From Enterobacter sp. 10-1 (lineage in GTDB: Bacteria; Pseudomonadota; Gammaproteobacteria; Enterobacterales; Enterobacteriaceae), in NCBI GenBank assembly GCA_002270295.1, contig NISF01000004.1:248001-312000 (forward strand): 64,000 bases of DNA. Reading direction: 5' to 3'. Both the position numbers and the translations under genes were made by a program. Shown here one piece after another: positions 12,678 to 52,427 of this stretch; position 1 is the first letter of the stretch; every line of letters begins with the position of its first letter. Under the pieces are notes generated by a model. That model was given only the letters and a program-made list of their open reading frames with translations. It was not told the DNA's origin and ran no database searches.

Positions 12678-12699
12678 AGGATTTAATGAATGCAAAATG

Positions 12700-12790: not shown

Positions 12791-12811
12791 AAGACGCATG
12801 TTTAGCGCGCA

Positions 12812-12830: not shown

Positions 12831-13065
12831 CGCGCGCTTTGGGGGTAGGGAAGGGGTCGGTATACCTCGCCAAAAGCCGCCTGCCGGGCGCGCACTTTCG
12901 CGGTGCATCCGGCGAGCGGGCAGGCAAAAGCCCGCCAGAGTGGCGCTGGCTGCGTCTGGTTGGTGATATGACATTGAAGTGTTGCAGGTTGGCCGACATG
13001 GCCGGGAATGGTGGTGGTGCTGGTCGGTACCACACCGCCGGAAATGGCAGTGCGGTACCTTCAAA

Positions 13066-14118: not shown

Positions 14119-15839
14119 CAGTACTCCATAACAGTCATAGTGTTGCCGCCTTCCTGGCCCAGCGGCTCGTTAACGGTGGCGAGCATGGTCGCCCAGGCGA
14201 GATCGCCGTGACTCACACCACGGGCGCGGTCGGTGTCGTAAGTGATGACGCCGCCGGGCGTGACCACCTTGCGTACGGCGCAGAAAGCGGTGATTAGATC
14301 ATATTCTCCGCGGTCATACTCCCAGCGGCCGGCGCGAATCAGTTGCAGCATTTTCAGTACCAGCATGCGTTTACTGGCTGGCGAGAATTGGTAGCACACC
14401 GCCGCCGGAAAGCGCTTCTTCACGAGCTGGTAAACCGCCTCGCCAATGCCGCTGCCGTCGATGCCGATGTGCTGCACGTTGTAGCGCGTGAGCATGTTAA
14501 TGATCATGGCGGCCTGCGCCTCAAACTCCATGCCGCGCACGCGAATGGTCTCGATAGTGCGGAACTTGCCGCCGGGGATCAGTGGCGCCGCGTTAACAGA
14601 GATGGCCCCGCTGTCGCCTTTGCCGCTGGAGCCGTTGGGGTCGTAGCCAATCCATACCGGGCGATCGGCCATTGGCCGCATGGCGTAAGGTTTCCAGTCC
14701 GGCCACTCGTCGTAACCGTCTGCGCCGCAGCTCAGCAGTATGTTGTAGTCAAAGGCGGTTTCACCGTTCTTGATGAAGGTGCAGGCGTAGAGGTTGTCGT
14801 ACTCTTCCGGGCTGTTTTCCTCGCGGATTTCGTCAATGTCAGTCAGATCCCAACCGTTATCGACCGCATCCTGCAACGTGACGATCTGGCGCCAGATTTT
14901 GTCCGGGCACATCAACCCACTGTTAAGCGTCTTCCAGGACGTGTCGAACTCCACGCGCTTACCGTGGCTGCGGCCTTTGTTGAAGGCTTCACCCGACCAG
15001 AAAGGGTACGCCTCGTGACTCTCCGCTGACGGTGTCGAGAAGTAGGTACGCGTCAATCCCTTCAGGGTCGCCATTGCGCCGGCCACTTTCTTCAGGTTGG
15101 CAAACTGCCCGACCCAGAAAAATTCGTCAAAGTACAGATTGCCGGTATAGGACTGCGCAGTTGCCGCAGAGGTACCGAGGAAGTGCAGTTCCGCGCCGTT
15201 AAACAGCTGGATCATGTCACCCCCTTTAAGTTCCACGTCTACCTCGGCGGCAGCGGCGCGAATGAAGCTGCGAAACTGGTACGCCTGGCGACGACTGGCC
15301 GACAGGAATATCTGGTTGAGCTGATGCTTGTACTTCACGTCATCAGACAGCGCACGCAGCAACGCTTCGCGGGCAAAGTACCAGGTCGCACCAACCTGTC
15401 GGCTTTTCAGGATCGCCCGGTTACGGTGGTGATGGTTCTCATACCAGGTTTTCTGATGCCAGTGCAGCGAGTCGATGATATTGGCCCGCAGCGCGGAGAT
15501 CTGCGTCTCGGAAAAGAAGTTCTGTTTCTTGCGGATCTTCTTCTTCGGCTGCGCCATTGGTGTGCCGTTATCCAGCTTTTTGAGCTGTCGCGTCAGCAGG
15601 TCAATTTCCTTGAAGTCGCCACCGGTCTTTGTGTCCTTACTGGTGAGCTGGATCAGTCGCGCATCAATGGACGTCGTGACGCGCTGGATCGGTGGCGTGG
15701 TGTCCCATTCGTCACGTTTTTTCCATGAGTAAATCGTGTTCTGATTGATACCCATCAGGCGCGCGATTTCCGCCGGCGGGTATCCCTGCCAGTAGAGCTG
15801 CCGCGCCCGCTGCATGATGAATGCTTCTTCAATCGCCAT
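14118..15839 (-). CDS. P: Terminase large (ATPase) subunit gpP
   Basis: A 573-aa packaging motor. The start at 15839 (MAIEEAFIMQRARQLYWQG) has GAGGAGG five bases upstream; longer frames run back to 15911 without an SD. The N-terminal HTH is PAEIARLMGINQNTIYSW. Walker A-like KSRQVGATWYFA and Walker B NLYFDEFFW identify the ATPase. C-terminal acidic residues (GYDPNGSSG, GIDGSGIGE) fit the nuclease domain. The length is close to P2 gpP (590). Confidence 0.95.
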   Translation of the reverse strand: MAIEEAFIMQRARQLYWQGYPPAEIARLMGINQNTIYSWKKRDEWDTTPPIQRVTTSIDARLIQLTSKDTKTGGDFKEIDLLTRQLKKLDNGTPMAQPKKKIRKKQNFFSETQISALRANIIDSLHWHQKTWYENHHHRNRAILKSRQVGATWYFAREALLRALSDDVKYKHQLNQIFLSASRRQAYQFRSFIRAAAAEVDVELKGGDMIQLFNGAELHFLGTSAATAQSYTGNLYFDEFFWVGQFANLKKVAGAMATLKGLTRTYFSTPSAESHEAYPFWSGEAFNKGRSHGKRVEFDTSWKTLNSGLMCPDKIWRQIVTLQDAVDNGWDLTDIDEIREENSPEEYDNLYACTFIKNGETAFDYNILLSCGADGYDEWPDWKPYAMRPMADRPVWIGYDPNGSSGKGDSGAISVNAAPLIPGGKFRTIETIRVRGMEFEAQAAMIINMLTRYNVQHIGIDGSGIGEAVYQLVKKRFPAAVCYQFSPASKRMLVLKMLQLIRAGRWEYDRGEYDLITAFCAVRKVVTPGGVITYDTDRARGVSHGDLAWATMLATVNEPLGQEGGNTMTVMEY

Positions 15840-38103: not shown

Positions 38104-39018
38104 TTATTCTGTCAGCACCGGATGGCCGCTCAGCGTTAAGGTGGTGGTGGCCGAATTGTTCACCAGCAGCGCCCTCGCGCCAAGCGGCAGGGTGACGGTG
38201 CGCTGCTCGTGGCCGAAATCCAGGCCGTCGATCAGCGGAATCGCGAGCTGCGCGCGCAGGTATGCGTAAACCGCCGCTAAATCGTACCCGGCGTCGTAAT
38301 CGTTGGGCGCGGCTCCGCTGAAGCTGCCGAGGATAATCGCCCGCTGGCGCGCAAGAATGCCGCTATGCAGCAGCTGCAGCAGCATACGCTCGACGCGGAA
38401 CGGGTGCTCGTTGATATCTTCCACGACCAAAATGCCGTCGGTAATCTGCGGCAGCCACGGCGTGCCGATAAGCGAGGTGAGCATCGCCAGGTTGCCGCCC
38501 CACAGCGTGCCCTGCGCGCGGCACTCCGGACCGTCGCCGTGCCATTCGAGGGTAAACTCCGGGCTGCTCAGCGCCTGCCAGAAGTGAAATTCCGTGAACG
38601 GGTCCAGCGTTTCCGCACCAAAGTTACCTGCCAGCATCGGCCCGCTGAAGGTGATTATGCTACCCTTTGCCAGCAGACCCAGCTGGATCGCCGTGAAATC
38701 ACTGTGGCCGCAGATCAGCAGCGGGTCGCGCTGCTGGCGCGCGGTTAAGCCCTGCCAGTCGATGTGCGGCAGCAGGCGGCTGGCGCCGTAGCCGCCGCGC
38801 ACCGGCATCACGATGCGGTTGCTGCCGCTGAGGGTAGCGAGCTGGTTGATATCGCTCAGGCGTTCTTGCTCAGTCCCGGCAAAGCGCTGCTGTCGGCGGG
38901 TAATGACCTGCTGATGCATCACCTGGTGTCCGGCTTCCTGCAGACGGCTGACGCCGCGGGCCGCGGCCTGCTGGTTGGTGCAGTAGCCTGAGGGGGCGAC
39001 CAGATAAAACTGAGACAT
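38104..39018 (-). CDS. ldcA: Murein tetrapeptide LD-carboxypeptidase LdcA
   Basis: A 304-aa cytosolic serine peptidase (S66) that removes the terminal D-alanine from recycled murein tetrapeptides. The nucleophile S106 is in LICGHSDFTAIQ; the catalytic Glu and His come from VVEDINEHPFRVERM and LDFGHEQRTVTLPLG. The gene is divergent from emtA, 95 bp apart, as in E. coli. Confidence 0.96.
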   Translation of the reverse strand: MSQFYLVAPSGYCTNQQAAARGVSRLQEAGHQVMHQQVITRRQQRFAGTEQERLSDINQLATLSGSNRIVMPVRGGYGASRLLPHIDWQGLTARQQRDPLLICGHSDFTAIQLGLLAKGSIITFSGPMLAGNFGAETLDPFTEFHFWQALSSPEFTLEWHGDGPECRAQGTLWGGNLAMLTSLIGTPWLPQITDGILVVEDINEHPFRVERMLLQLLHSGILARQRAIILGSFSGAAPNDYDAGYDLAAVYAYLRAQLAIPLIDGLDFGHEQRTVTLPLGARALLVNNSATTTLTLSGHPVLTE

Positions 39019-39113
39019 GACAATTCCTTGCTAAGAATGAAAGGGTTATCATGCCGCCTGGAGCGATTATTGTCATCTCCAGGCGGCAAACTTCAGCCAA
39101 TAAGGATAGATGT

Positions 39114-39725
39114 GTGAAATTGAGATGGTGCGTTTTTTTATGTGTGTTATTGGCCGGCTGTAGCTCAAAACATGATTACCGCAATCCGCCGTGGAACGCT
39201 GAGGTTCCGGTGAAGCGGGCAATGCAGTGGATGCCAATCAGCGAAAAAGCCGGCGCGGCGTGGGGCGTTGACCCGCAGCTGGTGACGGCGATTATCGCCA
39301 TTGAGTCCGGCGGTAATCCAACGGTAGTGAGTAAATCCGGCGCGGTTGGTTTGATGCAGCTGAAGCCTTCGACCTCCGGGCGCGACGTCTATCAGCGCAT
39401 GGGCTGGCGCGGCGAACCGTCGGTTAGCGAGCTGAAAAATCCTGAGCGCAATATTTCGATGGGCGCGGCCTACCTGAGCATTCTTGAGAACGGTCCGCTG
39501 GCCGGGATTAAAGATCCGCAGGTGATGCGTTACGCGGTGGTGGTCTCCTACGCCAACGGCGCCGGCGCGCTGCTGCGCACCTTCTCGTCGAATCGCCAGG
39601 ACGCGATTGACGAGATCAATGATATGGATGCCGACGACTTCTTCGAGCACGTAGCGAAAAAGCATCCGGCTCCGCAGGCTCCACGCTATATCTGGAAGCT
39701 GCAGAAAGCGCTGGATGCGATGTAA
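39114..39725 (+). CDS. emtA: Membrane-bound lytic murein transglycosylase E
   Basis: A 203-aa outer-membrane lipoprotein that cleaves the glycan strand to 1,6-anhydro products. GTG 39114 is chosen because it gives [15 protein letters not shown], the E. coli-like signal with lipobox LAGC (Cys16), and AAGGA lies upstream. SLT catalytic Glu64 is in [25 protein letters not shown] follows. Confidence 0.95.
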
Positions 39726-39733
39726 TCATTGCC

Positions 39734-39816
39734 GCCTTCCCCCGGTCGCGCCGCGCTTAACGGGGCTACAGATCGCGTGATTTTGTAGCCCGGTAGGCGC
39801 AGCGGCCGGGGGGAGA
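39734..39816. repeat. REP/BIME-like inverted pair
   Basis: Two GC-rich REP-like arms in opposite orientation. CCCCCGGTCGCGCCGCGC ... GGGGCTACA (39738-39770) mirrors TGTAGCCCGGTAGGCGCAGCGGCCGGGGG (39784-39812), imperfectly. It fills the gap between convergent emtA and the TonB receptor gene, and probably limits read-through. Confidence 0.7.
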
Positions 39817-39831
39817 GTTATCGGCTATCTC

Positions 39832-41952
39832 TTAAAAATCGTAGCCGACGGTGGCCGTCACGCTACGCTCCGCGCCCCAGTAGCAGTTGCCGGTTCCGTA
39901 GCAGCCGGACAGATACTCCCGGTCACTGAGGTTATTCGCGTTCACCTGCACAAACGCCCCTTTCAACGACGGCGACCAGACGCCGAGATCCGCACGCACC
40001 ATCGCATCCAGCAGGGTCACCGACGGCAGGCGCTCGGTATTGGCGTCATCCGCCCACTGTTTACCAATGTAGCGTACGCCCGCGCCGGCGCTGATCCCCG
40101 CCGGGAACTGATAGTGCGCCCAGAAGGAAGCCATCTGATCCGGCGAGAGCTGCGGCGTATTATCGTTGGTGCCATCCTTGGTTTCCTGGAAGCGCAGGCG
40201 GTTCCAGGTATAGGAGGCGATGGTGCTCAGCTGCGGCGTAATTTGGTTATGCATCTCCAGCTCGACGCCCTGAGAGTGAACTTTCCCGGCCGGAACAAAG
40301 GTCGCGGTGGCGATATTCGGATCGCGGGTGGCCACGTCTTTCTGGGTTAAATCATAGATGGCGATGCTGTACATATCGGCGCTGCCCGGCGGCTGGAACT
40401 TCAGACCCGCTTCTACCTGTTCCGCGGTCGTCGGTTTGAGCAGGGTGCCGTCGGCTCCCGGCAGCATCGCCGGGGTAATTGCCTGGCTGTAGCTCAGGTA
40501 CGGCGAGAGGCCGTTTTCCAGCGCGTACAGCAGGGAAGCGCGGCCGCTGATATGGTCATCGGAACGGCGGCTGGTGGTGCCGAACGTGTCGCTGACCTGC
40601 TGGGAAACGATGCGATCGTAGCGGCCGGAGAGGTCCAGATGCCAGCGATTCCACACCATCTCATCCTGCAGATAGAGCCCGGTCTGGTAATAGCGGCGGT
40701 TATTGTTATCGCTGTAGGTGACGGTATGCCCGCTCTGAGCGGTATAGCCGGTAAACGGATCGAGCGGCGAGGCGCCGCCGGCACCGGTCCATAAATCGTT
40801 GCGGAAGCGGTGGTATTCCGCGCCGAGGATGAGGGTATGCGCCAGCTCGCCGGTACTAAAATCGGCGCGCAGGCGGTTATCCGTGGACCACGCGTCCAGC
40901 GAGCCGCGAGAGCCGCTGTAGCCGCGGGAGAGCATATTCGTGTCGTCAACCCAGCCCACCTGATACACCTGATCTAACGAGACGTTGGTGTGGGTATAGC
41001 TGCCGGCGGAGTAGGCCGACCAGACGTCGCTGAACTGGTGGTTAAATTCATAGCTGTAGATCTGCTCGCGACGCTGATAGCCATCGGACGGATCGCCTTC
41101 GTTGGTGCCGGTGGAGAGCTTACGCCCGTTGTGCGCGTAGCGGGTGCCGTCCAGCGGCAGCGAGCCGTGATAGCCGCCCGACGGATCTTTTTGCAGATAG
41201 GCGCGCAGCAGCAGAGAAGTGTCGGTATCCGGCTGCCAGAGCAGGGACGGCGAAATGGCGTAACGCTCTTCGCGGGAATTGTCATACTGGGTATCGCTGG
41301 AGCGCGTCATGCCGATAATCCGATAGGCCCACTGGTCGTTAATGGCATCGGTATAGTCGAAGGCGGCGCCTTTGGTATTTTGCGTTCCGCCGCTAAGACG
41401 GAAATGACCTTCGGAAGTGAACTGCGGGCGCTTCGAGGTCAGGTTGACCACGCCGCCCGGCACGCTTTGCCCGTACAGCGCGGAGGAGGGGCCGCGGATG
41501 ACGTCCACCCGCTCGATAAACCACGGATCGACCTGAATGACGTTGTGGCTCCCGCCATCGCTCATCAGGCGCATTCCGTCGAGGAACAGGTTGTCCACGT
41601 CGCCGCCGTGATAGCCGCGCAGGGAGACGGTATCAAAACGCGTCGCGCCGCCGCCAAAGCTTGAGTAGACGCCGGGCGTGTACTGCAGCGCCTGGCTAAT
41701 CGTATTCGCCCCCTGGTCGGCCATTTGTTGTCGGGTAATGACCGACACCGACTGGGCGGTAGTAATCAGCGGCTGATCGGTTTTGGTGGCCCCGGCGGAG
41801 GTCTTTGCGCTATAGCTCGTGGTCGGCGTGCTGGCGGAATCGACGGGCTGGGCGGTGACGACAACCGTCTCTTCCGCAAGGCCTGCGAGAGGGAAAGCGG
41901 TAGCGAGGGCGCACAGCAAGGCGGAGCGTTTGAAGGTGACGCGAGCGATCAT
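39832..41952 (-). CDS. TonB-dependent siderophore receptor, FhuA/FoxA-like
   Basis: A 706-aa outer-membrane receptor with signal peptide (SALLCALATAFPLAGLAE). A TonB-box-like ETVVVTA follows near residue 28. The plug domain (SVSVITRQQMADQGANTISQALQYTPGV, RGPSSALYGQSVPGGVVNLTSKRP) precedes a 22-strand barrel. The C-terminus NNLSDREYLSGCYGTGNCYWGAERSVTATVGYDF is typical of the ferrichrome/ferrioxamine class. It likely imports a ferric hydroxamate. A Fur-box-like site lies 80 bp upstream. It is a single-gene unit, with REP elements at both ends. Confidence 0.88.
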   Translation of the reverse strand: MIARVTFKRSALLCALATAFPLAGLAEETVVVTAQPVDSASTPTTSYSAKTSAGATKTDQPLITTAQSVSVITRQQMADQGANTISQALQYTPGVYSSFGGGATRFDTVSLRGYHGGDVDNLFLDGMRLMSDGGSHNVIQVDPWFIERVDVIRGPSSALYGQSVPGGVVNLTSKRPQFTSEGHFRLSGGTQNTKGAAFDYTDAINDQWAYRIIGMTRSSDTQYDNSREERYAISPSLLWQPDTDTSLLLRAYLQKDPSGGYHGSLPLDGTRYAHNGRKLSTGTNEGDPSDGYQRREQIYSYEFNHQFSDVWSAYSAGSYTHTNVSLDQVYQVGWVDDTNMLSRGYSGSRGSLDAWSTDNRLRADFSTGELAHTLILGAEYHRFRNDLWTGAGGASPLDPFTGYTAQSGHTVTYSDNNNRRYYQTGLYLQDEMVWNRWHLDLSGRYDRIVSQQVSDTFGTTSRRSDDHISGRASLLYALENGLSPYLSYSQAITPAMLPGADGTLLKPTTAEQVEAGLKFQPPGSADMYSIAIYDLTQKDVATRDPNIATATFVPAGKVHSQGVELEMHNQITPQLSTIASYTWNRLRFQETKDGTNDNTPQLSPDQMASFWAHYQFPAGISAGAGVRYIGKQWADDANTERLPSVTLLDAMVRADLGVWSPSLKGAFVQVNANNLSDREYLSGCYGTGNCYWGAERSVTATVGYDF

Positions 41953-42034
41953 TGCATAATCCTGAAGTTACGCAGCCTGGTACTCCTGTACGCCGCCACG
42001 AGAAAAAGCGAAAGTGTCAATTTCCGTCATAAAG

Positions 42035-42050
42035 TAATGCGAATTATTAT
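42035..42050 (-). promoter_or_regulatory. Candidate Fur box upstream of the siderophore receptor
   Basis: TAATGCGAATTATTAT matches the Fur consensus TAATGATAATCATTAT at 13 of 16 positions, about 83-98 bp before the receptor start codon. It implies iron repression. Confidence 0.5.
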
Positions 42051-42172
42051 TGTTTATTTTTTTCGTTATCAAGTTGTAATTGGCGCACAGGAAAGTAAAA
42101 CCCTATGATAAATATGGTGTTTATCGGCGCATGCGTGGCGGGCAGGGGATGTCGAGGCGAAAGCTGCCGCGC

Positions 42173-42196
42173 CGGGCTACCAGATTTAGTAGCCCG
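42173..42196. repeat. REP-like inverted repeat
   Basis: CGGGCTAC and GTAGCCCG around an 8-nt loop, in the gap between the MOSC gene end and the receptor promoter. It resembles the arms of the REP pair at 39734 and may act as a terminator of the seven-gene operon. No T-run is seen leftward. Confidence 0.5.
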
Positions 42197-42216
42197 ACGC
42201 TAAGGAACTGCGGGGG

Positions 42217-42861
42217 CTAAGAGCGGCTTTGCAGACGTAGCAGAGCCAGCGCTCTCCAGCCATCGGCAAGGAACGGCATGGCTGAGAGCGCCAGCAGCTC
42301 TTCAGACGTACCGCCGTCGCTAAAGACGATGGCCTGCACCCGGCTAAGCGGCCAGCCCTCCGCCGGCCGATCGAGCAGCACAAAGCCGTCGCTGCAGCCG
42401 GCCTCGCCGGGGGTGAGTACCCGGTAAAACCAGCCGTTGCGCGACTGCTGGTGCATCAGCTCCGGGGCGTGAGGGTCCCGTAGCCGCTCGGCCATAGTCT
42501 GACAGGCCACGCGTCCCCAGGAGATCTGGATTTCAGCGTTGCCGAGGCGAAAAACATCCCCCGGACAGACGTTGGCTTCCGTCATCCCCCGGGTGGAAAA
42601 GTTCTCACCGAACAGTCCGATATGCAGCTGCTGCCCCGCCAACGCCGGATAGCGTTCGCGCCAGTAGTCGTAATGCTCCCGCGCGTAGTGCATCAGCGCG
42701 CAGTCGGGATCGGCAAAATGCTCCTCAATACCGTTTTCTGCCTGCAGACCGTGGGTGTTGAGAAAGACGCGTCCGCTTAACGCCGTTTTACGCAGGGAAC
42801 CGTCCGCCTGGCGCTGGTTGCCGAGAATGCTGCGCAGCATTACCGGAAAATCTGCAATCAT
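42217..42861 (-). CDS. MOSC-domain protein, YiiM-like
   Basis: A 214-aa protein with a MOSC domain (molybdenum cofactor sulfurase C-terminal fold). FGENFSTRGMTEANVCPGDVFRLGNAEIQISWGRVACQTM contains the family GEN motif and the invariant cysteine (C in RVACQTM). E. coli YiiM reduces N-hydroxylated compounds with its Moco. AGGAGG five bases before ATG 42861 sets the start. It is the last gene of the ModE-box operon, 37 bp after the TonB receptor gene. A Mo-handling or Mo-using role fits. Confidence 0.85.
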   Translation of the reverse strand: MIADFPVMLRSILGNQRQADGSLRKTALSGRVFLNTHGLQAENGIEEHFADPDCALMHYAREHYDYWRERYPALAGQQLHIGLFGENFSTRGMTEANVCPGDVFRLGNAEIQISWGRVACQTMAERLRDPHAPELMHQQSRNGWFYRVLTPGEAGCSDGFVLLDRPAEGWPLSRVQAIVFSDGGTSEELLALSAMPFLADGWRALALLRLQSRS

Positions 42862-42898
42862 GATGTCCTCCTTTTTCTCCGCCGCGGCGGAGAAGGTC

Positions 42899-44869
42899 TC
42901 AGAATTTATATTCCACGCCGGCCCAGAAGTTACGCCCTTCCTCAATAAATCCTTCGCCGTAGTAGTAGCGGGTATCGAAGAGGTTATTGACCGAGGCGTT
43001 GACGCTAAAACCGTGGCCGATGGCGTAATCGGTCCGCAGATGGGTGATGGCGAATCCCGGCGCTTTTTGCGATCCGTCGCTGTTGCTATAGCTGGAGGTG
43101 CGCGCCTCTTCAGAGAGCGTGATTTGCAGCGGCTCGACGGGCTTGAGCGTCAGCCAGGCGGTCAGCGTCTGCACCGGCAGGTCGGTGACCTTGCCCGCCT
43201 CTTCGCGTTTGGCATCAGCATGAATCAGACCGTAGCTTAGCCCGACGTCGAGCAGGTCAAACGGCGAGCCTTTGATCCCCACATCCAGGCCGGTATAGTC
43301 AACCCGGCCGCTGTTTTGGTTCTGCACCGTATCGGCATCGATATTGATCGCCAGGATGGCGTCGCTGACCCGGTTATAGTAGGTGCTTATCTCGTAGGCC
43401 CAGCGGTCGTTGAGGTGTCCATTCCAGGTCAAATCGACGCCGCGGGCGCGCTCGGGCTTGAGCTGCGGATTGACCAGCGCAATCTGGTCTTTCGCCGGTT
43501 TCGAGGTGGTATAGCGCTCTTTGAGCGTCGGGAAGCGGGTGCGATCGGACCAGGAGAGCGACAGGGTATCTTCGTTGCGAAAGCGGTAGCGAGCCATCGT
43601 TTCCCAGTTAAACGCGCTCTGCCGGTTGTCGTCGTAATGGGTCACGCTGCCGTTCTTTTCGTGCTTCATTCCCTGAAGACTGTTGCGCCAGTCATAGCTC
43701 ATCCCGGCGACGAAGTCGAGATTATCCGCCGCCGCCCACTGGTATTCGCTGGCGACGGACCAGGTGCGATCCTTATAGCGATCGTAAGGACCGTTGACGG
43801 CGCTCTTCTCCCGATGAACATCATCTTTCCAGTTAACGGCAAAAGAGAGCTGGTCGTTCTGGCGGACGTCGGCGGCGAGCTGCAGCCCCGCGCCGGTGCT
43901 GTAGTCGCTATAGTGGCTGTAGCTGCCGTTTTTATTGTGCAGGTCCGCCAGCGAGTTATACATCAGCAGGGTGTTTTTGAAGGTGTCGTGATAGAGGCGG
44001 CTTTTCAGGGTGAAGCTGTCGCCGAGGTGCGTCGTACCCTGGTAGTAATAGCTCTCCTTATCGTACTCCGGCCACTGCCAGTAGCGGGATTTCTGGCTGC
44101 TGGTTCCGGCGTAAGGCGGGTTCTGCTTCTCGCCATCCTGCTTGATATAGGTCAGGGCGTACTCGTCGTTAGCGCGCGGCGTGAAGCCGAGCTTAATAAT
44201 GCCGCGCTTATCATCGCTTGCCGAGTTGACCAGCTTGCCGTCTTCCCCGGCGACGGGGTTATTCGTTCCGTGAGGCAGGCCGAGGAAATCCTGCTTCAGG
44301 CGGCTGCCACTAAGCTGGATGTAGCCCAGATCGCCGCTGGCCCCAAGGGAGGCATGGGTGTCATAGGCATTAGTTTCGCTGCGGCTCCAGCCCTGACGAT
44401 AGCCGATGCTGGCTTCCAGCGGTTTACTGGGGCTCGGGGTGGTGATGTTGATCGCCCCGCCCATTTGGTTGGGGCCCTGCAGCAGGGAAGAGTAGCCTTT
44501 TGATACCTCCACCGAGGCGATATCGGAAGTGAGAAACCGGCCCAGGTCGAGGTTGCCGTCGTAGGGGACGTAGATCGGCACGCCGTCAAAAAAAACCGGG
44601 ACCTGACGGCCATCGAAGCCGCGGACTTTTACCTGCAGCTCGTTGCGGCTGCCTGACTTTTGTAACACCACGCCGGGGACCACCGATAGCGCGTGCGCGA
44701 CATCCTGCTTATCCAGACTCTTGATGGTCTCCTGTCCGAGGATATTGGTGGTCGCCGCCGGGACGGGGCTTGACCAGACGGTCATGGACTCCTCCGCCGG
44801 GTCTGCCCAGGCGGTCTGACCTAAGCTGAGGCTAATCAATGTGCAAAGATAGCGCTTCCTGATTCTCAT
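42899..44869 (-). CDS. TonB-dependent receptor of the putative molybdenum-uptake operon
   Basis: A 656-aa outer-membrane receptor. The start at 44869 gives MRIRKRYLCTLISLSLGQTAWAD, a signal peptide, with AGGA upstream. A TonB-box-like EESMTVWSS follows, then the plug (LSVVPGVVLQKSGSRNELQVKVRGFDGRQVPVFFDGVPIYVP in part, SVEVSKGYSSLLQGPNQMGGAINITTPSP) and a barrel ending FWAGVEYKF. The closest classes by eye are CirA/BtuB-like, not FhuA. Being inside an operon with ModD and a ModE box, it may take up a molybdate chelate rather than iron. Confidence 0.88.
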   Translation of the reverse strand: MRIRKRYLCTLISLSLGQTAWADPAEESMTVWSSPVPAATTNILGQETIKSLDKQDVAHALSVVPGVVLQKSGSRNELQVKVRGFDGRQVPVFFDGVPIYVPYDGNLDLGRFLTSDIASVEVSKGYSSLLQGPNQMGGAINITTPSPSKPLEASIGYRQGWSRSETNAYDTHASLGASGDLGYIQLSGSRLKQDFLGLPHGTNNPVAGEDGKLVNSASDDKRGIIKLGFTPRANDEYALTYIKQDGEKQNPPYAGTSSQKSRYWQWPEYDKESYYYQGTTHLGDSFTLKSRLYHDTFKNTLLMYNSLADLHNKNGSYSHYSDYSTGAGLQLAADVRQNDQLSFAVNWKDDVHREKSAVNGPYDRYKDRTWSVASEYQWAAADNLDFVAGMSYDWRNSLQGMKHEKNGSVTHYDDNRQSAFNWETMARYRFRNEDTLSLSWSDRTRFPTLKERYTTSKPAKDQIALVNPQLKPERARGVDLTWNGHLNDRWAYEISTYYNRVSDAILAINIDADTVQNQNSGRVDYTGLDVGIKGSPFDLLDVGLSYGLIHADAKREEAGKVTDLPVQTLTAWLTLKPVEPLQITLSEEARTSSYSNSDGSQKAPGFAITHLRTDYAIGHGFSVNASVNNLFDTRYYYGEGFIEEGRNFWAGVEYKF

Positions 44870-44894
44870 TTTTATTGTTCCTGTTTTCGTTTTT

Positions 44895-45749
44895 TTATCT
44901 TGAACTGTCCGGCTCCAGGCGAACCTGAATATCCGCCGGCGGCGCATACCACGGCGCCGAAGTAATAAACAATTCAATCCCACAATCGAGGTAGTTGGTT
45001 AAGGTGGTTAAGGTAATTCCGCCCGTCAGCGCCAGCGTGCAGCGCGGGGCGATACGCTGCGCCAGGTCAGCAACCTGGCGCGCCTGCGGCGGGGTAAATT
45101 TATCCAGCTGCAGGATGTCGGGTTCCGCCTGCAGCGAGGCCAGCGCTTCTTCGAGCGTGTCGGCCTCAACGGCAACCTTTTTCTCCGGCGCTGACTGGCG
45201 CAGGAGCTGAACGGCGTGTCGCCAGTCGCCGTCGTCGGCGAGGAACCGGCGATGATTGGCGAACAGCAGCAGGGTTTCCGCGCAGCCGGCCCGGTGGATC
45301 AGCCCGCCGGCGGCGACGATGGCCTGGGTACCGAGCAGCCGGGTGCCGGGAATGGCTTTGCGGGTACAGGCGATGTGCGCTGCGGGATGGCGGGCGCGCA
45401 GCAGCGTCAGCATTTCCGCGACATAAGCCGATACGCCGCAGCTCCACTCCAGCACGTTCTGCGCCGCTTTCCAGCCCTGATGCAGCGCCTCAGCGCTGCC
45501 GGTCGCACGCAGCAGCGGCGCATCGGGCTGGACGCGCGCGCCCTCTTCCTGTAGCACGGTTACGCTTAATCCCAGGCTTTTCAGCATCTGTCCAGCCGGA
45601 GAGATACCGCTGACGCAGCCGCCCTGACGGTGGCTGAAGGTCATGACGCCGGGGCGCGCGCCAATCGCCAGCGCACGGGTGGTCAGGTCGCCGCCCTGAA
45701 TATCCTCCATCAGCCACGCGTCGGTCAGCGCCTGGGGGAAGTAGATCAT
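44895..45749 (-). CDS. modD: ModD, nicotinate-phosphoribosyltransferase-like
   Basis: A 284-aa homologue of NadC (quinolinate phosphoribosyltransferase fold) known as ModD in molybdate operons; its exact reaction is not established. Fold motifs: DIQGGDLTTRAL, CTRKAIPGTRLLGTQAI (in NadC TRKT-PGLR), EADTLEEALASLQAEPDILQLDKF and LTGGITLTTLTNYLDCGI. ATG 45749 shares the ATGA overlap with the methyltransferase. NadC itself is elsewhere in enteric genomes, so this is a paralogue. Confidence 0.88.
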   Translation of the reverse strand: MIYFPQALTDAWLMEDIQGGDLTTRALAIGARPGVMTFSHRQGGCVSGISPAGQMLKSLGLSVTVLQEEGARVQPDAPLLRATGSAEALHQGWKAAQNVLEWSCGVSAYVAEMLTLLRARHPAAHIACTRKAIPGTRLLGTQAIVAAGGLIHRAGCAETLLLFANHRRFLADDGDWRHAVQLLRQSAPEKKVAVEADTLEEALASLQAEPDILQLDKFTPPQARQVADLAQRIAPRCTLALTGGITLTTLTNYLDCGIELFITSAPWYAPPADIQVRLEPDSSR

Positions 45750-46549
45750 ACGTTTTCCCCACACTCCCAGGAGATAAGCGCCCAGTCGCGGTTGGTTGGC
45801 GCGATGGCCTGCGGGTCCTGCCGCTGATACCAGTGACGAAGCCGCGCGCGATCCTCTTCGTTGAGTACGCCAAGCGTCCATTTGACGTTCTCTTCAAAAC
45901 GTTCAAAGGTGGCGTTATCCCGTTGGCAGCTGGGGCCACGGATAAAATCGACCCGCGCGTGAATGCCCATTTGATACAGGACGTTCAGCGCGTAGATATA
46001 GTTCGGTAGTTCGATCACTTCGCGTCCCAGCGCGCGCTGGATTGCCGGCGGCATAAACGTTGGCTGAACGAGGTGGGTGGTATAGACGCGCAGCCGCGCC
46101 TGGCGATTGAGCTGATCCATCGCCTGACGCATGTTGCCGACCAGCGTTGAGCGTGAGGCCACGGCAATATCGCAGCGCGGAATATCGTGCCACGACTCCT
46201 CCCACGCCCGGAGATGCCAGCAGGCGTTGGCGATGCGCATCTGCGCCGCGCGCTTTTCGGCTACCTCCAGCATTCCCCGGCTGTAATCGACGCCGTGTAC
46301 CGCAGCGAGTTTATCCGCCAGCGCCAGGGCGACGGTTCCCGGCCCGCAGCCCATATCAAACAGGCTTTGCGCGCCGGTTAAGTCTATTTTTGCCAGTAGC
46401 TGCAGCAGGTAGCCGTCCGTAGGCTGGGCGCAGCTGTCGGCCATTTTCTCCGCCCTCGCGTCCCAGTGGGCGGGGGATTTCTCGGTGCGTCCGGCGAGCC
46501 TGAGCTGCTGTTGGTAAAGCCCGGCAAAATCAATATCGTCAATGAGCAT
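45746..46549 (-). CDS. Class I SAM methyltransferase
   Basis: A 267-aa enzyme with the Rossmann SAM motif SLFDMGCGPGTVALALAD near residue 65 and GVDYSRGMLEVAEKRA (motif II). The post-motif RCDIAVASRSTLVGNMRQAMD replaces the usual substrate loop. The substrate is unknown; methylation of a metallophore or ligand is possible. It starts 2 bp after the ATPase gene. Confidence 0.88.
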   Translation of the reverse strand: MLIDDIDFAGLYQQQLRLAGRTEKSPAHWDARAEKMADSCAQPTDGYLLQLLAKIDLTGAQSLFDMGCGPGTVALALADKLAAVHGVDYSRGMLEVAEKRAAQMRIANACWHLRAWEESWHDIPRCDIAVASRSTLVGNMRQAMDQLNRQARLRVYTTHLVQPTFMPPAIQRALGREVIELPNYIYALNVLYQMGIHARVDFIRGPSCQRDNATFERFEENVKWTLGVLNEEDRARLRHWYQRQDPQAIAPTNRDWALISWECGENV

Positions 46550-46551
46550 AA

Positions 46552-47316
46552 TTATTCCTGAAAGTGTGGGTGGCCAAGATGGTGGCGGATCTGGGCGGGC
46601 GTCACGCCGTACAGGGTGGCGAGGTTGCCCGGTGAGAGCTGCTGCTCCGCCGTTCCCTGAGTGACGAGGCCGTTTGGTTCGACCGCGATCACGCTATCGG
46701 CGATGGCGAGGGCGTGCAGCGGATGGTGGGTGGCCATAAACAGCGTCATCCCGGTTTGCCGCAGCTGGCGCAGGGTGTCGAGCAGGCGGATCTGGTGGCC
46801 GAAGTCGAGGCTTGAGGCCGGCTCATCCAGCAGCAGCAGACGCGGGCGCTGGACCAGCGCGCGGGCAATTAAGGTCAGCTGGCGCTCGCCGCCGCTCAGC
46901 GTGGCCCAGTTCCGCTCGGCGAGATGAGCGATACCCAGCGCCTCCAGCTGGGCGTAGGCGATACTGCGTTCGCTTCTGGCGGGCTGGGTGAAGGTACCGA
47001 TATAGGGGCTAAGGCCCATCAGCACCATATCGAGGACGCTGAAGGCGAAGGCCCCGTCGTGCGCCTGCGGCACCCAGGCGATCGCGCGGGCGCGATCGCG
47101 GGAGCACAGCTGGGTTACCGGCAGACCGTCGATCAGGATCTGGCCGTCGCGCAGAGGAAGGAGGCCTAGTATGCTGCGCATCAGCGTGGTTTTCCCGCTG
47201 CCGTTGGCGCCGAGCAGGCAGCACAGCGTGCCAGGCTGCAGCGAAAACGACACGTCGCGCAAAACGGCGCGTTTGGGATAGCCAATTTCGGCATGGCGTA
47301 CCGTCAGTAGCGTCAT
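46552..47316 (-). CDS. FecE/MolC-type ABC transporter ATPase
   Basis: A 254-aa ATPase for the FecCD-type permease. Walker A is CLLGANGSGKTTLMRSILG near residue 35, signature LSGGERQLTLIARALVQRP near 135, Walker B RLLLLDEPASSLD and the H-loop MATHH. ATGA overlap with the permease gene. Same family as FhuC/BtuD and H. influenzae MolC. Confidence 0.93.
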   Translation of the reverse strand: MTLLTVRHAEIGYPKRAVLRDVSFSLQPGTLCCLLGANGSGKTTLMRSILGLLPLRDGQILIDGLPVTQLCSRDRARAIAWVPQAHDGAFAFSVLDMVLMGLSPYIGTFTQPARSERSIAYAQLEALGIAHLAERNWATLSGGERQLTLIARALVQRPRLLLLDEPASSLDFGHQIRLLDTLRQLRQTGMTLFMATHHPLHALAIADSVIAVEPNGLVTQGTAEQQLSPGNLATLYGVTPAQIRHHLGHPHFQE

Positions 47317-48305
47317 GGTCGGCTCCTGCGCAGCAGCAGCGCCAGAAAGAAGGGCGCGCCGATAAAAGAGGTCAGGATCCCGAGCGGGATTTCGCTGGCG
47401 CTCAGTCCGCGCGCCAGGGTGTCGGTGAGCAGCAGCAGCACGGCGCCAAGCCCCATCGCCACCGGCAGGAGGCGCTGATGATTGCTGCCGGTCAGCAGCC
47501 GCCCGATATGGGGGACGATCAGCCCGACCCAGCCGATAATGCCGGCAATAGCGACCGCGCTGGCGGTCGCGAGGGTCGCGCAGGCGACCACAATTAGCCG
47601 CAGGCGAGCGACGTTGATCCCCAGCGATCGCGCTTCGTCATCGGACAGGGTCAGCAGATTGATTCGCCAGCGCAGCAGCCACAGCGGCAGGCACCCGGCG
47701 ATCATCAGCGGGGCGGCGACGGTCAGGTCGGCGGGGGTAATATCGGAGAGACCGCCCATCAGCCAGAAGGTGATCGAGGGGAGCTGGGTGTAGGGATCGG
47801 CGAGAATTTTGATAAGCGAAATTCCCGCCCCGCACAGCGTACCGAGGCAAATCCCCACCAGCACCAGCGTCAGCGCCGGATCGTGGCGGACGATGGCGCG
47901 GGAGACGATCCCAACGCCGGCCACCACCAGCAGGCCGCCGCAGAAGGCGAATAGCTGAATATAGAGCGTCGACATTCCGCACACCAGCGCCAGGCAGGCG
48001 CCGAGACCGGCGCCGCCGGCGACGCCAAGGATATCCGGCGAGACCAGCGGATTGCGAAACATTCCCTGGTAGGCGGCTCCGGCGGCGGAGAGCGACGCGC
48101 CGATGGCCAGCGCGGCGCCGATGCGCGGCAGGCGTATCTGCCAGAATACGATGCCGGCCTGCGGAGGAAGCGAGGCGCTGTGCGGATCGAACAGCAGATC
48201 GAACAGCCGCCCGAGGGTCAGGTTCCACGGGCCGGTCAGCAGGGCTGCCGAGAGGACCAGCAGGGCGGCAAGCAGCAGCGCGGCGCTCAAAGTTGCAGGC
48301 TTCAT
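47313..48305 (-). CDS. FecCD/MolB-type permease
   Basis: A 330-aa inner-membrane permease with about 10 helices. Family motifs: RLPRIGAALAIGASLSAAGAAYQGMFRNPLVSPDILGV, WLMGGLSDIT, SLGINVARLRL, GIIGWVGLIVPHIGRLLTG. FecCD proteins carry siderophores, vitamin B12 or, in MolB, molybdate. The gene is GC-rich like its neighbours. Confidence 0.94.
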   Translation of the reverse strand: MKPATLSAALLLAALLVLSAALLTGPWNLTLGRLFDLLFDPHSASLPPQAGIVFWQIRLPRIGAALAIGASLSAAGAAYQGMFRNPLVSPDILGVAGGAGLGACLALVCGMSTLYIQLFAFCGGLLVVAGVGIVSRAIVRHDPALTLVLVGICLGTLCGAGISLIKILADPYTQLPSITFWLMGGLSDITPADLTVAAPLMIAGCLPLWLLRWRINLLTLSDDEARSLGINVARLRLIVVACATLATASAVAIAGIIGWVGLIVPHIGRLLTGSNHQRLLPVAMGLGAVLLLLTDTLARGLSASEIPLGILTSFIGAPFFLALLLRRSRP

Positions 48306-49327
48306 GGACGATTCACCAGCCTCGTATAGCGCTCGGGCGTTAACGCCGCGTGCCAGAATAGCGTGCTGTAGCGGGTCAGATCCTGCTGCAGCGTGGCGCG
48401 GATTCGCGGATCGAGCCAGGCGTGCAGGCGGCGCATCCCGGCGAGGCGGTTGATCCCCGGCGGCGCGTCCAGCCAGCCAAAAGGCAGGCCGTCAAGCAGC
48501 AGAACCCGCCGCTGCGCCACGGCGGCGACGCCCTGCCAGGCGGGGTCGCGTAAAATCGCGTCCCGCGTCGTGGCCTGCTGGGTGAGGATGATATCCGGCT
48601 GCCATTCCAGCAGATTTTCCAGCGAGACCTGGGCCAGTCCGCTGCGTCCGCTCACCCGCGCGACGTTCTCTAATCCCAGCAGCTCCGCCGCCTCCGTGTG
48701 CAGCGAACCGGCGAGGCCCGTTTCCAGTCCCCTGGCTCCCCGCGCGGCGTAAAAGCGCGTTCGCGCCCCGGCGCCAGAGGAAAAGGCGAGCGCCTCGGCG
48801 ATAAACGTTTGCGCCAGCGACGCCTGGTGCCGGGTGCGTTCGGCGGTGCCGACGATGTCGCCAATCGTCAGCAGCTGCTGCGCCGAGGAGGCCAGGGTGC
48901 CGGTAATCAGCACCCACGGAATATGGCTGCGGGCGTGAACCCGGCGCGCCTGCGAGATCCAGGTGTCGTCCGCATTCCCGCAGTCCACCACCAGATCGGG
49001 CTCAAGCGCCAGCAGCCCCTCCAGCGACAGGGTGCTGGCGCGTCCGGCAAGACGGCCCGTTTTCGGCAGCCGGGCGATGTGCTCGGGCAGCGGAGCGTCC
49101 GGGAAGAGGGCAAAATCAAAAGAGGAAAATCCCAGCAGTTTTTCCGGCGCGGCGGCGAGCAGCAGCATATCGGCGGGCCCGCCGGCGCTGACAATCCGCC
49201 GGATAGCCGCCGGCGCAGGGTGTTCGCCAATGCTCAGGGCCAAAGGCGTGGCGGCGCGACTCTTCTGGCCGGGAAAGCACAGCATGAGGCTTAAAGCCTG
49301 CAGGAACGTACGGCGCGAAAAAGGCAT
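48302..49327 (-). CDS. Tat-exported ABC substrate-binding protein (class III)
   Basis: A 341-aa BtuF/MolA-like binding protein. The N-terminus MPFSRRTFLQALSLMLCFPG has the twin-arginine SRRTFLQ, so Tat export of a folded protein is likely. Periplasmic lobes: LLLAAAPEKLLGFSSFDF, LEGLLALEPDLVVDCGNADDTW, LENLLEWQPDIILTQQATT. The ATGA overlap couples it to the permease. It heads the operon, 35 bp after the ModE-like palindrome. Confidence 0.9.
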   Translation of the reverse strand: MPFSRRTFLQALSLMLCFPGQKSRAATPLALSIGEHPAPAAIRRIVSAGGPADMLLLAAAPEKLLGFSSFDFALFPDAPLPEHIARLPKTGRLAGRASTLSLEGLLALEPDLVVDCGNADDTWISQARRVHARSHIPWVLITGTLASSAQQLLTIGDIVGTAERTRHQASLAQTFIAEALAFSSGAGARTRFYAARGARGLETGLAGSLHTEAAELLGLENVARVSGRSGLAQVSLENLLEWQPDIILTQQATTRDAILRDPAWQGVAAVAQRRVLLLDGLPFGWLDAPPGINRLAGMRRLHAWLDPRIRATLQQDLTRYSTLFWHAALTPERYTRLVNRP

Positions 49328-49361
49328 ATGTTTCTATCCTGAAACAAAGTGATGAAAAAAC

Positions 49362-49385
49362 CGCTATATATTTACATATATAACG
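49362..49385 (-). promoter_or_regulatory. ModE-box-like palindrome
   Basis: CGCTATATA-N6-TATATAACG, where N6 is TTTACA. This fits the ModE operator consensus (CGNTATATA-N6-TATATANCG) and the E. coli modA operator half AACGTTATAT. It is 35-58 bp before the binding-protein start, so it overlaps the expected promoter. ModE with molybdate would repress the operon. The remaining bases to the treA end contain only the terminator. Confidence 0.8.
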
Positions 49386-49480
49386 TTGATGAAGTTGCCA
49401 GAGATCAAAAATCGACACATTAGTTTCCGCCTTACTCCATAAGGGTAAGGTGAAGTCGAAAGGCCATTCGGGAGGGGAAA

Positions 49481-49509
49481 ACGCCCGGCATGGCTGAGCC
49501 GCCGGGCGT
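49481..49509 (-). terminator. Terminator of treA
   Basis: Stem ACGCCCGGC / GCCGGGCGT with an 11-nt loop; leftward it is followed by TTTTCCCC. It lies 21 bp after the treA stop. Confidence 0.75.
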
Positions 49510-49529
49510 AAGTCGGGAGCGGTGAGGGG

Positions 49530-51296
49530 TTAATGCGCGGCGGCAGGCGCCGCCTTATCCGTTCCACTGGCGCTATCGTTTGCCGCCGGTCGCGCGGCAG
49601 GCGCCGCCTTATCCGTTCCGCCGGCGCTATCGTTTGCCGCCGGTCGCGCGGCCGGGAGCGAATCGCAGGGTTTCTCTTTCGGGCACACCAGGTCGAGCAT
49701 TTTCAAGGTCACGCCGTTGGTCCAGCCGAAGCCGTCCTGCAGCGGATACTCACCGCCTCCGCCGCCGGTGCCGGTTGAGCTGACGTCATACTTTTCCACC
49801 AGCTTCTGCTGGCTGTCATAGGTATGCTGCACGTTGCTGAGGAAGCGCCAGCTGACCTCCATCGCGATTTTCTGCTGGCCGTAGTTTTGCAGCCCTTCGG
49901 CGGCCACCCACTGCAGCGGCGCCCAGCCGTTCGGCGCATCCCACTGCTGACCGCTGTTGACGGTAGTGGTGGTTAAACCGCCCGGTTTAAGCAGACGAGA
50001 CTGCGTCGCGGCGGCAACTTTGGCCGCGCGTTCGCTGGAGGCGGCGTTGACGTACAGCGGGAACAGAGCCGCGGCGGTGAGCTGATTGCGCACCTTGTGG
50101 CTTTTGAGATCGTAATCGGCGTACCAGCCCTCTTTGTCATTCCACAGGTATTTCTCCAGCGCCTTCTGGCGGGCGTTAGCCAGCGCGTCGTACTGCGCCG
50201 CCTTCGCGCTATCGCCGGCGGCTTTGCTGGCGCGGGCGAGGGTTTTCTCCATGCGGAACATCAGCGAGTTAAGATCGACCGGAATGATGCTGGTGGTGCG
50301 AATGGTGCCCAGCTGCTGCGGGTTATCCATCCAGCGGGAGCTGAAGTCCCAGCCGGAGGCCGCGGCGGAGCGCAGATCGCGGTAGATCTCGGTCGCCGGA
50401 CGGTTGGGGTTGTTTTTGGCGGTGGTCACATCATCGAGCCAGGACTCCGGGCGCGGCGTATCGTTGTCATCCCAGTAGCGGTTCAGCAGCGCGCCGTCCT
50501 CCATGCGCACCACGCGCTGATTCGCTTTACCCGGCTCCAGCGCATCGGCGCCTGCCATCCAGTAGCGGTACTCTTTCTCCATCTCAGGCAGCCAGGTTTT
50601 CAGCGCCTGGTCGCCGTCGTGGGTCGCCAGCAGCTCCACCATAAACGGGAAGAACGGCGGCTGTGAACGGCTCAGATAATAGCTGCGGTTGCCGTTCGGG
50701 ATATGTCCCCAGGTATCGATTTCATAGGCAAAGTTAGCCACCATATCTGCAACTTTGTCCCAGTGCCCGCTCTCGGCCAGGCCCAGCATGGTGAAGTAGC
50801 TATCCCAGTAGTAGACCTCGCGAAAGCGGCCGCCCGGGACGACGTAAGGCCTGGGCAGCGGCAGCAGCGAATCCCATTTCTCGACCTCAACGGTACTGCG
50901 GGTCAGCACCGGCCACAGGCCGTCAATATGCTGGCGCAGGGTCTGGCCCTTGGGCGGTACGTACGTATCGTTATCTTTCGGTAGCGTAAAGTTGAGCCCG
51001 ACAAAGTGGCGCAGGTCGAAGCTGGCCTGATTTTTCTGCATGCGATAATCGGCGAGGATCATCAGCGGATCGCCGTTCGGCACCGCATCGGCGAAGGTTT
51101 TCTGATCGGGGAAGAGTTTGGCGCTTTGCACATCGTTGAACAGCGGGCCTAGCAGAATATCCGGCGACTGCGGCGGGGCGGGCTTTGTCTCATCGGCCTG
51201 GGCTGCCAGCGCCGACAGCGCAAAGAGGGCGCCTCCCAGCGCCAGACGCAAAGCGTAGGGCAGCGTTGCCGGGCGACGTGAAACGGATCTCGTCAT
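49530..51296 (-). CDS. treA: Periplasmic trehalase TreA
   Basis: A 588-aa GH37 enzyme that splits trehalose to glucose under osmotic stress. Signal peptide: [23 protein letters not shown]. Trehalase signatures [15 protein letters not shown] (near residue 155) and [12 protein letters not shown] (near 450), plus SGWDFSSRW with the catalytic Asp. The C-terminus has two tandem 18-residue copies of an Ala/Pro-rich motif ([17 protein letters not shown]). E. coli TreA ends with a different short tail. It is a monocistronic unit with its own terminator. Confidence 0.95.
49542..49649. repeat. 54-bp tandem duplication in the treA 3' end
   Basis: Two adjacent 54-bp copies, 49542-49595 and 49596-49649, differing at a couple of positions (ACT vs GCC region). 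Each encodes the 18-residue Ala/Pro-rich unit at the TreA C-terminus. Copy number may vary between strains. Confidence 0.9.
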
Positions 51297-51527
51297 GGGT
51301 AGTTCTCCTTATCATTACAGACGATTTTGCCACTGCGATTGACCATCAGAAAACCTTAGACGAATATCCGCCGCTACGCGTGTCGCAGCTAACATTTTGC
51401 GTGAAAACAGATAATTTACCTGCATTTTGCGCCGCCGCCGGGCGGATAAGGGCGCCATGCGGGTGGCCGCTTTCTGCTAAAATCGCGCTACCGTAACAAC
51501 GAGCTAAAAGCCCACCGGGAGCGAGCC

Positions 51528-52427
51528 GTGAACCGACGTCATTTTCTACTGTTTAGCGCCGCGGCGCTGCTGGCGGCCAACCGCGCCATCGCCCGCGATC
51601 CTGAGCAGGAAACCCTGTGGCTGTGGCCCGGCGACGCGCCGGGCGGCGGCGGGCCGCAGGGCGCGAGCCGGCGGTCGGCCCGAGGCGCCCTCAGCCATAT
51701 CGCGCGGCCGCAGCTGTCGGTGTGGCAGCCGGCGGCGCCTCGCGGACACGGCGTGCTGGTCGCCGCCGGCGGTGGCTACCGGCGGATTGAAATGGCGAAG
51801 GAGGCGTGGCCCGCCGCCCGCTGGCTAACGGCCCGCGGCTATACCGCCTATGTGCTGAGCTACCGTCTTCCCGGCGAAGGCTGGGCGGCGGGTGGCCTGG
51901 CGCCGCTGCAGGATGCCCAGCGCGCGCTGCGTCTGATTCGCCAGCGCGAGCAAAAGGTCAGCCTGCTGGGCTTTTCCGCCGGCGGCCACCTGCTGGGAAT
52001 GACCGCCTGCCGGGCTGATTTTGCCTCTTATCCGCCGGTCGACGCGAGGGATGCGCTGTCCGCCCGCGCCGACGGAGCGGCGCTGATCTATCCGATTATT
52101 TCGCTGGAGCCGCCCTATAGCCATACCGCGACCCACCGGGTCCTCGCCGGACCTCACGCCTCACCGGCGGTTGACCGCGCCTGGTCGGTGCAGACCTACG
52201 TGAACCGGCGCACGCCGCCCTGCTTTTTAACCCAGGCGCAGGACGATCCGGTGTCCGATCCGCACAATACGCTGATTATGGCCGACGCCTGCCGCCAGCA
52301 TCAGGTGGCGGTCAGCCTGTATCGCTACGCCAGCGGCGGTCACGGCTTTGGGATGGGACGCCCGGGCACGCCAACCGTCGCCTGGCCGGAGCGCTATGCG
52401 CGCTGGCTGGAGACGCTCTCGCCGTAA
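51528..52427 (+). CDS. Exported alpha/beta hydrolase (BD-FAE/acetyl-esterase-like)
   Basis: A 299-aa esterase-like protein. N-terminus MNRRHFLLFSAAALLAANRAIA is a Tat-like signal (NRRHFLL). Catalytic triad candidates: S150 in LLGFSAGGH, Asp in QAQDDPVSD and His in SGGHGFGMG. The motif GGGYRRIEMAKE is the oxyanion-type HGG variant. Substrate unknown: perhaps a polysaccharide acetyl group. Divergent from treA; the 231 bp between hold promoters only. Confidence 0.85.
   Translation: MNRRHFLLFSAAALLAANRAIARDPEQETLWLWPGDAPGGGGPQGASRRSARGALSHIARPQLSVWQPAAPRGHGVLVAAGGGYRRIEMAKEAWPAARWLTARGYTAYVLSYRLPGEGWAAGGLAPLQDAQRALRLIRQREQKVSLLGFSAGGHLLGMTACRADFASYPPVDARDALSARADGAALIYPIISLEPPYSHTATHRVLAGPHASPAVDRAWSVQTYVNRRTPPCFLTQAQDDPVSDPHNTLIMADACRQHQVAVSLYRYASGGHGFGMGRPGTPTVAWPERYARWLETLSP

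Follow-up and report, generated by a model that had tools for sequence, protein, structure and literature searches.

A ModE-box operon of Enterobacter sp. 10-1 as a probable importer of molybdenum or tungsten with a TonB-dependent receptor

For a compact operon of Enterobacter sp. 10-1 we predict uptake of molybdenum (or tungsten), probably in chelated form, through a TonB-dependent receptor and under repression by ModE, a reading to which we assign a probability of roughly 0.78. Its seven genes lie on the minus strand at positions 42217-49327 of the stretch analysed here (64,000 nucleotides; contig NISF01000004.1, positions 248,001 to 312,000), which is referred to below as the window. The regulatory link to ModE is well supported by comparison of homologous loci, and we infer the identity of the metal and its chelated form from gene families and gene neighbourhoods. 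A first-pass annotation, made from the sequence alone, had proposed a ModE-controlled operon importing molybdenum or tungsten via a TonB receptor. This core proposal is supported by conserved boxes before the operon, separate receptor boxes in 9/24 loci, a MolB-like permease, the linkage of ModD to molbindin genes, and a distant receptor relative located beside modE.

The operon and its control region comprise the following features, with gene families assigned by Pfam and NCBIfam and start codons refined afterwards:

49403-49408, minus strand: -35-like TTGATC, 17 nt upstream of the operator, which covers the expected -10
49362-49385, no strand: putative ModE-type operator CGCTATATA-N6-TATATAACG (exact match and conservation in homologous loci)
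48302-49327, minus strand: class III substrate-binding protein (SBP) with a twin-arginine translocation (Tat)-type signal, 4pag/MolA-like (PF01497, Peripla_BP_2)
47313-48305, minus strand: FecCD permease, MolB-like (FecCD family match; PDB comparison)
46552-47316, minus strand: ABC ATPase (PF00005, ABC_tran)
45746-46549, minus strand: class I S-adenosylmethionine methyltransferase (PF13649, Methyltransf_25)
44895-45749, minus strand: ModD, a NadC paralogue with an apparently altered substrate pocket (TIGR01334, residue comparison)
42899-44869, minus strand: TonB-dependent receptor (PF07715, Plug, and PF00593, barrel, both over the cut-off)
42217-42861, minus strand: MOSC / YiiM-like protein, accessory (PF03473; PF03475, YiiM_3-alpha)

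At three junctions neighbouring genes overlap by 4 bp, and at the other three they are separated by 2, 25 and 37 bp, in agreement with the seven leftward genes with overlaps or gaps below 40 bp that had been described at first pass. The SBP starts with MPFSRRTFLQ, which we take to be a Tat-type motif, and ESMTVW behind the signal peptide of the receptor is presumably its TonB box. An Rfam scan of positions 39000-52000 returned no match up to E 0.5.

Upstream of the SBP gene, the palindrome CGCTATATATTTACATATATAACG is found as an exact match at 49362-49385, with 34 bp between the end of the box and the SBP start codon. The full ModE-type palindrome claimed by the first-pass annotation is therefore present; 100 shuffles of the window gave no box match at three or fewer mismatches, and a box is found in all homologous loci (24/24). 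These 24 loci, the window included, were drawn from genomes of the family, together with loci L017 and L018 and an Escherichia coli locus (L062). Of 295 genomes of the family, 21, among them that of Enterobacter sp. 10-1, encode the SBP (12/154 genera). A box with zero to three mismatches stands directly before the SBP gene in every locus, those with SBP identity as low as 40% included, while first-order Markov-shuffled promoter regions contained a box in 17 of 4800 cases. In the 432,615 bp of the 24 loci the pattern occurs 33 times: 24 times before the SBP gene, nine times at the receptor start, and nowhere else. The box of L061 (= L041), in which the SBP is interrupted, lies outside the scanned promoter stretch (eight mismatches there) and was seen in two other scans.

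The nine loci in which the receptor start has a box of its own are L053-L061; in L056 this box falls within the longest receptor frame, ahead of the start that relatives suggest. Since the receptor gene has a separate box in these loci, the receptor itself, beyond the ABC part, would there follow ModE. In the window, the 25 bp between modD and the receptor gene contain no box. ModE scored over the cut-off in 20 of the 21 operon-bearing genomes, including that of Enterobacter sp. 10-1.

The position of the box is suggestive of repression. Of 23 promoters that were compared, 22 have a TTGAY element, and its spacing to the box is exactly 17 nt in 14 of these. With TTGAY 17 nt before it, the box would cover the expected -10, which is the geometry of a repressor site; ModE is predicted to bind there and to repress. 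A generic sigma-70 scan of the operon promoter called no promoter, so that the -35/-10 assignment rests on the comparison of the 23 promoters. Negative control by ModE has been reported for modABC (PMC8264917).

The six core genes occur in the same order in 19/24 loci. Of the exceptions, L042 has no labelled FecCD frame, L043 lacks the ATPase and has a short receptor frame, L018 has broken frames and neither methyltransferase nor ModD, L051 meets a contig end, and L061 has the interrupted SBP. ModD and the methyltransferase are found together in 22/24 loci, with L018 and L051 (cut off) as exceptions. The MOSC gene is optional for the operon, being present in 7/24 loci (L051 is cut off before the MOSC position). 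The L018 copy (positions 9980-14731), from Candidatus Symbiopectobacterium, is decaying; its SBP and FecCD frames are broken and methyltransferase and ModD were not found, while the receptor frame is still open at 629 amino acids.

Comparison with known structures places the inner-membrane part of the system near MolBC. The permease matches HI1471 MolB with 207 bits, ahead of HmuU (164), FhuB (154) and BtuC (131). The best single-domain match of the ATPase is HI1470 MolC (126 bits), followed by FhuC (120), with five longer multi-domain chains scoring higher. The best matches of the SBP are 4pag (80 bits) and MolA HI_1472 (39 bits), and the SBP is not a MolA orthologue, as it shares 27% with the MolA orthologue of its own genome over a 229-column alignment. 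The transporter therefore appears to be MolBCA-like, not MolBCA proper. AlphaFold models were uninformative for both the SBP (3-sequence alignment, pLDDT 32) and the methyltransferase (2 sequences, pLDDT 40).

Some relatives outside the family connect the same proteins to molybdenum genes. Among 274 class-level genomes, five, own genome included, encode the receptor (E up to 1e-80), the four distant loci being L170-L173. In L171, a modE-type gene (HTH_1 and TOBE) is divergent from the receptor gene, with a two-mismatch ModE palindrome between the likely starts; the receptor is followed by DUF2478, an SBP, FecCD, and lastly a frame that contains a methyltransferase. L172 comprises the receptor, an SBP_bac_11 protein (26.6 bits, cut-off 25), which we take to belong to the ModA-type family, DUF2478, an SBP, FecCD and an ATPase. 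L173 contains receptors, SBPs, and a TOBE (molbindin) protein that neighbours a ModD-like frame (36% identity, not scored by hidden Markov model, HMM). Outside the genus, the ModD gene of L154 overlaps a double-TOBE (molbindin) gene, and an alphaproteobacterial relative of the SBP-FecCD-ATPase set (L064) adjoins a molybdate SBP and a TOBE protein. The first-pass annotation had held that ModD and MOSC each point to molybdenum; the molbindin linkage elsewhere supports this for ModD, and MOSC, found in 7/24 loci, points there only weakly. The DUF2478 genes within the distant receptor operons (L171:8902-9549 and L172:9809-10357) may encode a molybdenum-handling protein.

In the genome of Enterobacter sp. 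10-1 we detected 15 distinct ModE-like places, 13 of which were read, this operon among them, leaving out two three-mismatch places on contig C33. Gene names at these places were read from frame starts by eye, and only part of them were scored by HMM. Places with zero to two mismatches adjoin dmsA, moaA, modE/modA, yghW, a narU-like gene, sfnB/DUF1543, this operon, and two further Fec/TonB loci. The modE gene was scored at C11:587706 and a ModE-type site lies at 588444, beside modE/modA (L012). Published targets of ModE include modABC, moa and dmsABC (PMC8264917; also the reference titles of PMC10845959). The three-mismatch match at C11:876479 was rejected as a real ModE site, since it lies inside a LysR-like frame, and was taken as chance. 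A perfect ModE-type palindrome at L008:4451-4474 (C32:550950-550973) stands between sfnB (sulfur acquisition) and a DUF1543 gene, where a link between sulfur and molybdenum is possible. An exact site at L007:3697-3720 (C22:560196-560219) lies at the start of a yghW-like gene.

Two other uptake loci of this genome have such a box. At L019:12555-15836 (C11:1652054-1655335), a TonB receptor and a Fec-type SBP form a pair (12555-15811) behind a one-mismatch ModE-type box. Relatives of L019 were found in 16 of 149 genomes, and the box was seen in 17/17 loci within the fetched ~4-5 kb. It stands directly before the receptor in 12/12 longer homologous stretches and directly upstream in two of the other five loci, its position in the locus being covered for those fourteen only. 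The L019 receptor has no significant match to that of the window (E 0.37). At L020:9779-12634 (C32:459278-462133), an SBP-FecCD-ATPase set (9779-12583) carries a ModE-type box, and its SBP is the MolA orthologue (458 bits to HI_1472). The box was found directly before the MolA-orthologue gene in 34 of 37 loci (28/30 and 6/7), including two of three outside the family; the first set consisted of 30 out of 39 matches, and the 37 loci come from enterobacteria and relatives. Since the molB gene of H. influenzae is repressed by molybdate via an unknown factor (PMC4031551), the boxes before 34/37 MolA-orthologue genes suggest ModE as a candidate for that factor.

The gene nifH was over the cut-off in 4 of the 21 operon genomes, which argues that nitrogen fixation is not their common denominator. 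Enterobacter sp. 10-1 has two such genes, one on C34 and the other in a cluster that reads as anfHDGK, an iron-only nitrogenase (L157:8730-13399, on C11); the genome scan gave no ModE-type match at three or fewer mismatches in the promoter of the anfHDGK-like cluster. That the substrate is tungsten and not molybdenum we consider very improbable: the ModE-type sites of this genome adjoin molybdenum genes, and the genome has nifH.

We propose the following course of events. When molybdenum is plentiful, molybdenum-bound ModE would sit on the promoter-overlapping palindrome and the operon would be shut. When it is scarce, the TonB receptor would carry molybdenum or tungsten, probably chelated, across the outer membrane, and the Tat-exported MolA-like SBP would pass it to the MolB-like FecCD/ATPase importer. 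Once in the cytosol, the ligand may be acted on by ModD and the methyltransferase (and MOSC where present), and molybdate would be freed for the molybdenum cofactor and, where present, for nitrogenase.

The functions that this scheme gives to ModD, the methyltransferase and MOSC are hypothetical. ModD scores 400.5 bits against TIGR01334 (cut-off 178.85), and is rare over that cut-off, in 3/398 phylum-wide genomes and 1/14 control genomes, L154 being the single case outside the genus. We aligned 23 ModD and 23 NadC sequences in the numbering of 5ayx, the NadC set being 23 of 27 loci picked by the motif TRK..PG.R, so that R138 and K139 are conserved in it by construction. R138, K139, R161 and E201 are invariant in both sets, H160 is present in 23/23 ModD and 22/23 NadC, and D222 in 22/23 ModD. 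In 23/23 ModD the NadC residues E101, R102, K171 and N223 are replaced by W, K, F and K. The first three, which we take to be the NadC substrate site and which ModD lacks, are E, R and K in 23/23 NadC. To judge from this alignment, ModD keeps most NadC catalytic residues and has a changed substrate pocket; it could plausibly be a phosphoribosyltransferase-like enzyme whose substrate is a different aromatic acid. In the methyltransferase, the D.GCGPG motif and the VASRSTLV block are invariant in 22/22 aligned sequences. Both enzymes probably act on the imported ligand. They might instead build it, the operon making and retrieving a small molybdophore; the presence of both in 22/24 loci and the retained catalytic residues of ModD with its changed pocket would suit such a role, but the operon has no exporter and no scaffold-forming enzyme, and two enzymes of this kind look too few for a chelator. 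We give this possibility very little credence. Less doubtful, but still unlikely, is a wider picture in which enterobacteria run a ModE-governed, TonB-dependent molybdenum-metallophore economy with two unrelated receptors. In it, the carrier imported by this operon would be disarmed in the cell and so give up its metal, its chelating groups being phosphoribosylated by ModD, methylated by the methyltransferase and, in loci that have it, reduced by MOSC as a reductase.

Several observations weigh against ModE-controlled molybdenum import as we read it. Most database labels of the SBP, as well as the E. coli papers considered below, say iron. The closest SBP structure, 4pag, is unassigned, and MolA comes only second, at 39 bits; H. 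influenzae MolA, moreover, binds free molybdate and needs no chelate (PMC4031551). One operon-bearing genome (G082, 290 contigs) gave no ModE match. Among the distant receptor loci, L170, L172 and L173 have no box at four or fewer mismatches, and L170 has no recognised molybdenum neighbour; the second alphaproteobacterial SBP relative that was opened (L063) likewise has no molybdenum neighbours. A Fur-like match equals or beats the control in 7/24 loci, the control (a FoxA-like gene, 6/19 mismatches) being only presumed to be Fur-regulated. In the whole genome of Enterobacter sp. 10-1, the box at three or fewer mismatches occurs 14 times forward and 12 times in reverse; for a reversed control pattern the counts are 10 and 13. 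Loose matches being as frequent as those of the control, single loose matches mean little, and what counts is the exact match together with its conservation.

The first-pass annotation had taken the receptor to imply a chelate, or molybdophore. This implication is loosened, because a TonB receptor could take a free oxyanion and the operon contains no chelator gene. None was recognised either, by eye and partly by HMM, beside the 13 of 15 ModE-like places read in the genome. Zinc, which ZnuD takes up across the outer membrane without a chelate, offers a parallel. Receptor and SBP might accordingly take free molybdate or tungstate at very low concentration, with ModD and the methyltransferase serving otherwise in molybdenum handling. 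The MolA-like SBP and the MolB-like permease would fit, as would molybdate transport by H. influenzae MolBC-A (PMC4031551). Diffusion through porins is, however, the presumed way in for molybdate (PMC8264917), the genome already has a modE/modA locus, and two cytosolic enzymes accompany the transporter in 22/24 loci, which suits an organic ligand. On balance we hold uptake of the free oxyanion to be rather unlikely. This alternative and that of tungsten overlap with the reading we prefer, and the odds given to the several readings do not sum to one. If the substrate is a chelate, the chelator may be foreign: 2,3-dihydroxybenzoate-AMP ligase was over the cut-off in only 9 of the 21 operon genomes, so a catecholate of the cell's own is not general.

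An iron role has been proposed for the corresponding E. coli operon, prrA-modD-yc73-fepC (CFT073 pathogenicity island, O157:H7 S-loop 83/OI-55, and avian pathogenic strain BEN2908), described as 'possibly mediating iron uptake' (PMC12928451; an iron role also in PMC1890555); the accessible text mentions no ModE site. By our own matching of names, prrA, modD, yc73 and fepC fit the receptor, ModD, methyltransferase and ATPase of the operon. In E. coli O157:H7 and ST131 the six-gene set lies beside treA (the six genes are also found in L062), the SBP is ~60% identical to that of the window, and no MOSC gene follows the operon. These O157:H7 and ST131 copies carry the box with one and two mismatches, respectively. 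In E. coli K-12 MG1655, by contrast, ycgY is the sole gene separating treA from ymgE. Were the operon an iron-siderophore importer that ModE tunes for another reason, such as the balance of iron and molybdenum, its Fec/TonB family membership and the published proposals would be accounted for, and so would the Fur-like matches with 5/19 mismatches in 4/24 loci (L058-L060 and L062). L044, L055 and L057 have 6/19 mismatches, mismatches range from 5 to 9 across the 24 loci, and dual control by Fur is conceivable in some of them. In the window, the Fur-like match is poor (9/19 mismatched). The ModE box in 24/24 loci, with a separate receptor box in nine, the MolB-like permease, and the linkage of ModD to molbindin and of the receptor to modE also speak against iron, and we consider such an importer improbable. 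Directly downstream of the operon, positions 39832-41952 encode a FoxA-like ferrioxamine-type receptor, with a weak Fur-like match upstream of the gene.

Import of molybdenum through this operon would resemble known systems in part. H. influenzae MolBCA is likewise a FecCD-type ABC importer, and the permease of the operon matches MolB and its SBP, weakly, MolA; the MolA orthologue of Enterobacter sp. 10-1 is at a different locus (L020). To our knowledge, H. influenzae MolBCA has no linked receptor, ModD or methyltransferase. The operon has its operator type in common with the ModABC/ModE regulon, and such an operator also lies beside modE/modA here. ModABC belongs to another class of ABC importers and, unlike the operon, has no outer-membrane part. 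Azotobacter produces the catecholate molybdophores protochelin and azotochelin, siderophore-like ligands that carry molybdenum, and we know of no dedicated molybdenum receptor for them. In Azotobacter the chelators are known, whereas the operon offers a candidate receptor, the reverse case. In Acidithiobacillus ferrooxidans, a bifunctional iron/molybdenum TonB-ABC cluster has been predicted beside nif, which similarly combines siderophore-type uptake genes with a molybdate-binding protein (PMC2631029). It differs in having a Fur box, given in a figure legend, and a ModA-like SBP, and the accessible text mentions neither a ModE site nor ModD (PMC2631029).

No ModE-controlled TonB receptor was found in the literature searched, with most subscription papers, RegPrecise, and the ModE-site paper of Studholme and Pau lying outside the search. 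The first-pass annotation had considered the combination not described in enterics. This stands for the molybdenum role, and not for the operon, which is known in E. coli as prrA-modD-yc73-fepC and was assigned to iron. The novelty lies in the conservation of the ModE boxes and in the assignment to molybdenum, neither of which was found in the searched literature.

The current view is that molybdate reaches the periplasm of Gram-negative cells by diffusing through porins and is taken up from there by ModABC (PMC8264917). If our reading is true, a ModE-controlled outer-membrane receptor would give molybdenum or tungsten an entry route of its own. ModD would gain a testable role, and the label 'iron' would have to be changed for an operon whose first gene has a match in 2101 of the 5426 complete E. 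coli genomes, with 2093 of these matches spanning at least 80% of its length.

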